Assembly: GCA_021848025.1 (NCBI GenBank)
Contig: JAJZND010000018.1
Location: 1-54,566 of the forward strand
Direction of reading: 5' to 3'
Source of the DNA: Microcaldota archaeon
GTDB lineage: Archaea > Micrarchaeota > Micrarchaeia > Micrarchaeales > CABMGC01
Length of the DNA: 54,566 bases
The stretch's first letter is position 1. Each line of letters begins with the position of its first letter. The position numbers were made by a program, and so were the translations under genes. Positions 23,049 to 25,366 of the stretch are shown here, one piece after another. The notes beneath the pieces are model-generated. The model saw only the letters and a program-made list of their open reading frames with translations, did not search any database and had not been told where the DNA came from.

Positions 23049-23160
23049 GTCAACGGCCATAGGAGCAGGGTCACGCCCGAACCCATCCCGAACTCGGAAG
23101 CTAAGCCTGCTCACGATGTGGAATACTGCCTAACCGGTGGGAAAACACATTGCTGTTGGC
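23049..23160 (+). rRNA. rrf: 5S ribosomal RNA (unlinked)
   Basis: About 112 nt. The terminal helix GTCAACGG (23049-23056) pairs with CTGTTGGC (23153-23160). Loop-A to loop-B conserved bases CGCCCGAACCCATCCCGAAC and GGAAGCTAAGCC are clear. No 16S, 23S or tRNA lies next to it, so it is transcribed alone from its own TATA box. The 3' end is only 5 bp from the stop of the convergent gene at 23166. Confidence 0.93.
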
Positions 23161-23165
23161 ACTAT

Positions 23166-24083
23166 TTATCCCTCAAGAATTATCTTCGAGGCAAGCCATT
23201 GCAAGTTTACCGCATTGCTGCCAGATACGGCGCTGGACCGGAGAGCCACATCGATGGACTCGGAGATGCGGTAAAAGTGCCCTAGCCCATATCTGCGATG
23301 CACTCCTATCCTGTCTGCATAAGCAGCTATTACTTTGGAAGATGCGATGGCGTCTTCAACAGCATCGTGCCCAAGCACCTTGCTTATCGCCACCTCATCG
23401 CTCTGATTTATGCCTATACCTGCATCACACTCGTTCCTGCTTAACCATCTGCACTCGAAGACCTCCAAATGCAACTCCTTTCCATGCTGCTGAGGAACTA
23501 CAACCACAATTACATCAAGCTTCCGGATAAGTCCGGTGCTTACCTTGAAAGGGTGCAGCTGCAGGCTGCCTAGCAGGGCTCCTGGTTCATGAAAACCATC
23601 TATTGCAACTGCAAAGTGCATGCAAAAATTATCGCATCTAAATACGGAGTCGGCCTGTCCTGGAATCAGTGCGCCAGCGAAAATGCGATCATAATTTGCA
23701 AGTTCGCCATTCTCCCCTATAAGGCCTGAGATATCTGCTTTCGTTGCGCCATTGCATGGCAGAATTGTATTTTCATATGGCAGCCTGTCTGGCAGCCTGC
23801 GCCTGCCATCGCACAGTATTGCTGTTCTGTGGTGGACCGGAACAAGCGGCAGAAGCTGCATTAGCAGATCAGCGCTTCTTCCGTCTTCGGATATCACTGC
23901 AATATTCATCTCAGTACGCAGAGCCAGGCCCAGATATGCAAGCATATTGCTTTCCAGAGTGTACTGCAAATAGCATCTGGACTCCGGGACCATCATATTG
24001 AACTTCCGTTCTAAAAGTGCATTCTCCAAGTTCTTTGCTGCACGCAGTGCGTTGGCTTTCAGCATCCGAAAAACTTTTATCAT
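23166..24083 (-). CDS. Degenerate GspE/VirB11-like secretion ATPase relative without nucleotide-binding motifs
   Basis: 305 aa, start ATG 24083. Not annotated by an obvious motif, but it lines up by eye along its length with the true secretion ATPase at 44108-45406. TLESNMLAYLGLALRTEMNI (42-61) matches ELSYNMAGRLWLYAEGLK and on. SEDGRSADLLMQLLPLVPVH (65-84) sits where the Walker A and following helix are. IFAGALIPG replaces Walker B LIIGEIRG. FAVAIDGFHEPGALLGSLQL (157-176) corresponds to SMGTIHASTTRDVVTRLEHA. All catalytic residues are lost, so it may be a structural or regulatory pseudo-ATPase of a pilus or secretion system. Alternatively it is a decayed copy, though the frame is intact. Convergent with 5S rRNA. 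Confidence 0.6.
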   Translation of the reverse strand: MIKVFRMLKANALRAAKNLENALLERKFNMMVPESRCYLQYTLESNMLAYLGLALRTEMNIAVISEDGRSADLLMQLLPLVPVHHRTAILCDGRRRLPDRLPYENTILPCNGATKADISGLIGENGELANYDRIFAGALIPGQADSVFRCDNFCMHFAVAIDGFHEPGALLGSLQLHPFKVSTGLIRKLDVIVVVVPQQHGKELHLEVFECRWLSRNECDAGIGINQSDEVAISKVLGHDAVEDAIASSKVIAAYADRIGVHRRYGLGHFYRISESIDVALRSSAVSGSNAVNLQWLASKIILEG

Positions 24084-24234
24084 AGTATCAAATCATATAC
24101 TTAAATATATGATTATACTTATCTGATGGCAAAGCTTATATATATTCCTAAATCCGTTGTATGAGAATAAAATCTGCAGAAGAGCAATAACACCGAATAT
24201 ACATTTATAAAACTTAATGTAGTTAGGTTATATT

Positions 24235-24649: not shown

Positions 24650-25366
24650 ATGATACTTAATAAACCATACCTTCTCTCAGAGATTAAAAAACTGACACCA
24701 ACTGTTTCTTCATTTGTTTTCAGTCCGCAGGACAACGCGAGTATAGATTTTTCGCCAGGAATGTTTGCAATGCTCCAGTTCAAGGGAGAGCAGCCGGGAG
24801 AAACAGTCGCTAGGGCCTTCTCCATGGCTAACTGCCCTCCTTCGCCTGAATTCGAATTCCTTATCGCACTGGTCCATGGAAAGCTTACTTCACACCTTGA
24901 AAATGCCCGGATTGGCGATCTTTACTATATCTCAGCGCCTTACGGCCAGTTCAAGTTCGATTTCAGCGAAAAGAACAAGTTTCTTTTCCTGGCCGGAGGG
25001 ACGGGGCTGGCCCCGTTTATCTCAATGCTGCGATACATCAAATCCAAGGGAATAAAGGCAGACTGCAGGCTCATATACAGCGTAAAGTATCCTGACGAGA
25101 TAATAAATAAGGGCGAGCTGGAGGCTTTTGGCAGGAGCATAGGCCTTAAGACAACAGTCACAGTAACCAGGCCGCAGCCAGGAGACGGCTGGAATGGCGA
25201 GAAAGGGCATGTAAACGCTGAAATGATAAAGAGGGATGCTCCGGATTGTGCTGACAGGATAAGCTATATATGCGGGCCACCTGCGTTTGTCAAGGCCCTC
25301 AAAGATGCGCTGATAAGCCTCGGCGTAAACGAGAAGAGCATAAAAGCAGAGATGTGGGGAGAATAA
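24650..25366 (+). CDS. FAD/NAD(P)-binding oxidoreductase (ferredoxin-NADP reductase-like)
   Basis: 238 aa. The FAD-binding barrel carries RAFSMAN (RxxS type), and the nucleotide-binding domain has FLAGGTGLAPFISML and a C-terminal YICGPPAFVKAL. No 2Fe-2S Cys cluster is seen at the C-terminus, unlike PyrK or HydG subunits, so it is a two-domain reductase. Partner (ferredoxin, flavodoxin) unknown. Monocistronic; AGAGGATTTTAA lies before ATG 24650. Confidence 0.85.
   Translation: MILNKPYLLSEIKKLTPTVSSFVFSPQDNASIDFSPGMFAMLQFKGEQPGETVARAFSMANCPPSPEFEFLIALVHGKLTSHLENARIGDLYYISAPYGQFKFDFSEKNKFLFLAGGTGLAPFISMLRYIKSKGIKADCRLIYSVKYPDEIINKGELEAFGRSIGLKTTVTVTRPQPGDGWNGEKGHVNAEMIKRDAPDCADRISYICGPPAFVKALKDALISLGVNEKSIKAEMWGE

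Follow-up and report, generated by a model that had tools for sequence, protein, structure and literature searches.

A Walker-less relative of GspE/FlaI-type ATPases, probably retained for a non-catalytic role at a former pilus locus in Micrarchaeota

The window, a 54,566-nucleotide stretch from the genome of a Ca. Micrarchaeota archaeon (G000), contains an open reading frame (ORF) of 305 codons that starts with ATG and has no internal stop (Table 1). Its stop codon lies a few bases from the end of a 5S rRNA gene on the opposite strand, an arrangement also found in the only congener that was found (G001, MAG MAS3.bin136; loci L150 and, for the 5S rRNA gene, L009). On its upstream side, the ORF shares an intergenic region with a divergently oriented gene for a winged-helix protein; this region is 93% identical to that of the congener, without indels, and includes a TATA-like stretch. 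The winged-helix protein was present in 137 of 164 genomes of the order, with 58–99% identity in aligned relatives. It gave no match in Pfam, NCBIfam, or PHROGs and, by fold, is PadR/HxlR/MarR-like; it is apparently a core regulator in this Micrarchaeota order. The separate ATPase gene near 44 kb stands alone, and all T2SSF matches of G000 were on contig C9, which encodes another pilus ATPase and two GspF proteins. This C9 machine was intact in both G000 and G001.

Table 1. Features of the pseudo-ATPase gene and its surroundings in the window; residue numbers refer to the 305-aa protein.
Feature	Position	Strand	Remarks
5S rRNA gene	23049..23161	+	Converges on pseudo-ATPase; on pilus-gene side in relatives
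Walker-less pseudo-ATPase ORF, 305 aa	23166..24083	-	Lacks N-terminal domain; core of the ATPase eroded; C-terminal domain retained
C-terminal domain, residues 186-305	23169..23528	-	Part under most constraint (omega 0.23)
Kept motif SKVIAAY, residues 249-255	23319..23339	-	Conserved among 27 Walker-less forms
Kept motif ECRWLSRNE, residues 210-218	23430..23456	-	Conserved among 27 Walker-less forms
Former His box, residues 157-163, FAVAIDG	23595..23615	-	Aligned with orthologue FMATMHS/FMTTMHS
Former Walker B site, residues 133-141, RIFAGALIP	23661..23687	-	Aligned with orthologue RLVVGELRG / R-GE-RG
Former Walker A site, residues 65-72, SEDGRSAD	23868..23891	-	Aligned with orthologue GAPASGKTT (ORF: SEDGRS-AD)
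Shared divergent promoter region	24084..24234		Pseudo-ATPase and winged-helix gene; 93% identical to congener
PadR/HxlR-like winged-helix protein, 114 aa	24235..24579	+	Divergent neighbour at intact and Walker-less loci
FAD/NAD oxidoreductase-like gene	24650..25366	+	Synteny anchor common to intact pilus loci (cluster c3)
Separate intact GspE/FlaI-type ATPase, PF00437	44075..45406	+	Pfam match; not the parent of the pseudo-ATPase

Alignment with orthologues indicated that approximately 200 N-terminal residues have been lost from the 305-aa protein, leaving an N-terminal stretch of about 40 residues. The Walker A P-loop (GxxxxGK[ST]), Walker B, the Asp-box glutamates, and the His box were all missing in this alignment. 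Searches of Pfam, NCBIfam, and PHROGs with the ORF gave no match, and a search of PDB sequences with the ORF alone gave no match of note. An earlier note on this DNA had described an intact frame of no recognized named family in which Walker A, Walker B, and the His box were replaced; these observations held, with the replacements located at the places that it named. Because the defining motifs were tested for and found missing, the protein is, as judged from its sequence, pseudoenzyme-like and not a functional member of PF00437.

An AlphaFold model was built from an alignment of the 305-aa ORF, its congeneric counterpart, and 34 relatives. The predicted structure (pLDDT 82, pTM 0.84; weak at residues 31–40 and 91–130) had FlaI (4ihq) and GspE (2oap) as its top PDB structure matches, with E-values of about 1e-11 and TM-scores of ~0.6 (query length), although the intact ATPases that dominate the underlying alignment in part dictate the fold given to the eroded core.

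In a whole-genome search of 40 genomes, homologues of the ORF were detected in 33 at E ≤ 10, the better matches having E-values of 1e-7 to 5e-17 over ORF residues 40–285. An order-wide search yielded matches in 114 of 164 genomes at E ≤ 0.01. Most matches were proteins of approximately 500 aa, and those inspected carried a GAPASGKT-like P-loop, a Walker B GE-RG, and a TMHS box. This intact form was retained in most genomes of the order that had a match, in most cases at the corresponding locus, where it leads a pilus operon. It is divergent from a small winged-helix gene (cluster c2), often has the oxidoreductase gene (c3) nearby, and is followed downstream by genes for two divergent GspF/TadC-like proteins and by pilin-like genes. 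Genomes of the order encode several PF00437 ATPases each; the intact ones in G000 and G001 are the one on contig C9/C13, which has two GspF genes close by, and the 44-kb one, which has a counterpart in G001. The winged-helix and oxidoreductase genes still stand beside the 305-aa ORF, which therefore sits at the ancestral locus. Where relatives have pilus genes, the ORF is followed in the window by the 5S rRNA gene and a NUDIX gene. Direct observation of the locus revealed no pilus genes of this third system, and profiles of its two GspF-like proteins and its large pilin-like protein had no match in G000 or G001; as G000 is 88% complete, their absence outside the locus is likely rather than certain. 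Homology and gene order thus showed that the 305-aa ORF descends, in place, from a third archaeal ATPase of GspE/FlaI type, distinct from the other two.

Walker-less forms were found in 11 genera of the order (g1, g2, g4, g11, g13, g17, g22, g24, g27, g28, and g37). Those of G022, G093, G059, and G108 are full-length and have no P-loop; others are short, about 240–325 aa, and in g2 a form of 250–263 aa is kept across six species. G112 has a P-loop and has lost the N-terminal domain and the other motifs, while in G077 the P-loop remains and the histidine of the His box and the pilus genes are gone. At the locus, g4, g11, g13, g24, and g28 each include intact as well as Walker-less forms, which corresponds to at least five events, plus those in other lineages, if the genera are natural groups. 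Parsimony on a winged-helix tree with few columns and poor resolution gave 12 changes; long branches join in the ATPase tree, which cannot settle the number of events. A single ancient Walker-less paralogue is not favoured, as intact and Walker-less forms share the locus and co-occur within five genera. An internal stop was confirmed in no Walker-less copy at some 30 loci, a survey that badly decayed copies would escape.

Pilus genes were absent from the genomes with Walker-less forms, except G107 and G109; weak matches in G039, G126, G027, G112, and G129 coincided with, or resembled, the other GspF system. In G107 and G109, the ancestral locus holds a Walker-less copy, and a second pilus operon, located elsewhere, is intact; the ATPase of that operon has a changed C-terminus that lacks the full C-terminal motif. 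The loci concerned in the two genomes are L154 2785-8888 and L155 1354-7504, and L153 3909-5249 and L097 2965-4308. At both Walker-less loci of g11 (L054 2253-4484 and L064 1408-3648), the same P-loop ATPase of ~745 aa, HerA/VirD4-like by eye, adjoins the pseudo-ATPase. In g2 (L048-L051, L075, and L076), a gene for a small HTH protein and a SUF iron-sulfur cluster operon with, by eye, sufB-like, sufD-like, sufC-like, and sufS-like genes come after the pseudo-ATPase.

Residue conservation was counted over 27 Walker-less forms, with the numbering of the G010 protein. Catalytic residues had largely vanished (K272 kept in 7%, T273 in 4%, E293 in 0%, R342 in 0%, and H364 in 4%), while a C-terminal signature, ExxWLSRxE...SKxIxxY, persisted (D392 89%, E412 96%, W415 100%, L416 85%, S417 78%, R418 74%, E420 89%, K453 81%, and Y458 89%), with retention percentages that are inflated to an unknown degree because similarity searches supplied many of the sequences and each sister species was counted on its own. 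Similarity detection favours forms that keep conserved residues; loci were also collected through the winged-helix gene, and these added further forms with the C-terminal domain. In genus g36, the divergent ORF at the locus has lost the C-terminal part and not the core, and that of G104 matched the N-terminal domain of the ATPase (E 1e-6). The g36 ORFs (L082 1767-2321, L083 3338-4249, L084 1791-2582, and L090 1692-2237) are very fast evolving, and some keep parts of the N-terminal domain. The g36 loss and the altered C-terminus of the intact copies of G107 and G109 weaken the notion that the signature is universally kept. No recognizable ATPase-derived ORF was found beside the winged-helix gene in g26, g35, g46, and G045; persistence of this gene where the ATPase gene is gone weakens its candidacy as an obligate partner.

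The ORFs of G000 and G001 share the same 305 codons without indels and are 77% identical, with 49, 32, and 71 differences at the first, second, and third codon positions, respectively. Their dN/dS was 0.28 by NG86 and 0.34 by YN00 (dS 0.45 and 0.38, similar to that of most neighbours), as compared with 0.01–0.14 for neighbouring genes (NG86). A codon model gave an omega of 0.37 and rejected omega = 1 (2dlnL 27.9, p = 1.3e-7). Since both copies have the N-terminal deletion and the lost motifs, this omega measures constraint after the loss. When the frame was divided, omega was 0.45 for residues 1–40, 0.53 for the dead core (41–185), and 0.23 for residues 186–305. Neutral simulation at 0.40 substitutions per site produced a mean of 5.7 stops and 47% amino-acid identity, against the observed 0 and 77%; only 0.35% of the runs were free of stops. 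Intact copies of the third-type gene had an omega of 0.05–0.08, one further pair being saturated. The higher value of the pseudo-ATPase therefore indicated that selection was relaxed, though not absent. Estimates of dN/dS for more distant pairs were saturated. Walker-less pairs that allowed testing in other genera gave an omega of 0.36 in g22, 0.24 and 0.32 in g2, and, in g13, 0.03 on near-saturated data (0.18 by NG86). Omega was thus well below 1 in all four lineages where pairs allowed testing, and the C-terminal bias was repeated in g22 (0.21 in the C-terminal domain versus 0.38–0.42 elsewhere). These codon comparisons showed that the 305-aa frame has been under purifying selection since the motifs were lost, most strongly in its C-terminal domain.

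The earlier note had proposed a Walker-less relative of GspE/VirB11-type ATPases that may be kept as a pseudo-ATPase, and had suggested a structure model and an orthologue search as checks. Homology and the modelled FlaI/GspE fold agree with the relationship, orthologues were found across the order, and, because the frame is held by selection, the label pseudo-ATPase fits. Of its further claim, that the protein aligns with the ATPase encoded 20 kb away, membership of the same broad superfamily stood; the pairwise comparison lacks support, because BLASTP of the two proteins gave nothing significant (E 5). By these criteria of similarity, the 44-kb ATPase is a distant cousin of the ORF and not its parent. 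The note's idea of a subunit or regulator of a pilus or secretion machine is tentative; the pilus that the ancestral ATPase served is gone from G000, although the C9 pilus ATPase remains with its two GspF genes.

The reading that we prefer, with a probability of roughly 0.6, is that the pseudo-ATPase persists because its C-terminal domain does non-catalytic work, probably as an adaptor or regulator. The comparisons show that the motor ATPase gene of a third type IV-pilus-like system stayed in place without the remainder of its operon, that it lost its N-terminal domain and every ATP-handling motif, and that purifying selection has acted on the shortened frame after this loss. Repeated losses with a retained gene in related archaea suggest a second job for the tail end of the protein. 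We infer that the C-terminal domain of the intact ATPase already had such a second, non-catalytic role, probably binding of another protein as an adaptor or regulator, which outlives the pilus. One candidate partner is the divergent winged-helix protein next door, which shares the promoter region yet persists without the ATPase; another is the remaining ATPase/GspF pilus machine of contig C9. Only part of the weight of this reading rests on any single candidate partner. The relaxed selection, the C-terminal loss in g36, complete gene loss in some lineages, the similarity-detection bias, and the intact operons of G107 and G109 without the full C-terminal motif count against it. A more specific version, in which the domain moonlights as an adaptor or regulator, perhaps together with the winged-helix protein, and the motor was stripped in parallel many times to give a new class of pseudo-ATPases with a job other than pili, is tentative and falls short of even odds.

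The main rival holds that the gene became functionless with the loss of the pilus and is slowly eroding by in-frame deletions and substitutions, so that the leftover constraint would reflect a recent loss or avoidance of harmful misfolded or truncated products. It would accommodate the graded series from full-length forms with a lost P-loop (G022, G059, and G108) through short forms (g1, g2, g13, and g17) to absence, an omega several times that of intact copies, and the loss of different parts in g36. We nevertheless consider slow decay unlikely: no internal stop was confirmed among the Walker-less loci, omega was significantly below 1 in four lineages, g2 holds its short form across six species, the promoter region is conserved, and the C-terminal domain was the most constrained part in both lineages that could be divided. 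Clearly less probable still is a role as non-catalytic subunit or regulator of the C9 machine (an ATPase and two GspF proteins), for example in joining or capping its hexamer. The intact state of that machine in G000 and G001 and the predicted retention of a RecA-like core and C-terminal fold are compatible with such a role, but the pseudo-ATPase gene is unlinked to the machine and its core, the part that makes most hexamer contacts in the GspE/FlaI-type family, is the least constrained.

Two other origins are very improbable. Derivation from the 44-kb ATPase as a diverged duplicate, to which the shared superfamily and the match of both proteins to the FlaI/GspE fold or family might point, is ruled out by the locus, by the BLASTP result, and by the much closer similarity of the ORF to the third ATPase family, which occupies the corresponding locus in relatives, the 44-kb type being a separate ATPase in the same genome. 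A chance open frame without coding history would explain the silence of the protein-family libraries; it is equally excluded by homology, synteny, the codon-position bias, and omega.

Secretion and pilus ATPases are normally thought to be useless without a P-loop and a pilus. In several lineages of one archaeal order, both the ATP site and the pilus have been lost and the gene is still under selection; as a series of natural experiments, these lineages lend themselves to the search for a second function hidden in a pilus motor. The orthologue set separates catalytic from non-catalytic residues, and annotation by family libraries misses such Walker-less proteins entirely.

Pseudoenzymes are catalytically dead members of enzyme families that are kept for binding or scaffolding, and the 305-aa protein resembles them in having lost its catalytic residues while keeping its fold and purifying selection. 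To our knowledge, no VirB11/GspE pseudo-ATPase with repeated origins at a single locus has been described; none appeared in the titles, abstracts, and passages searched, and an archaeal T4P census made no mention of such proteins under the terms tried. Archaeal T4P systems have been described (PMC4858521), and two T4P systems have been reported for the ARMAN-2-related strain Mia14 (PMC5498576). As compared with GspE2 of A. fulgidus (2OAP) and FlaI/ArlI (4IHQ), the pseudo-ATPase lacks the N-terminal domain, Walker A, Walker B, and His box and, unlike those systems, has no GspF partner at its locus or, for its own system, in the genome. It shares with them and with PF00437 a predicted RecA-like core and C-terminal domain fold, and its intact orthologue matched 2OAP at E 2e-36. 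The intact third pilus ATPase, exemplified by L108 (isolate KMA_Bin06, 507 aa; 26% identity to the 305-aa ORF), differs in having all motifs and in leading an operon that includes pilin-like genes and those for two GspF/TadC-like proteins, while the two share the same locus, as marked by the winged-helix gene, and the same C-terminal signature.
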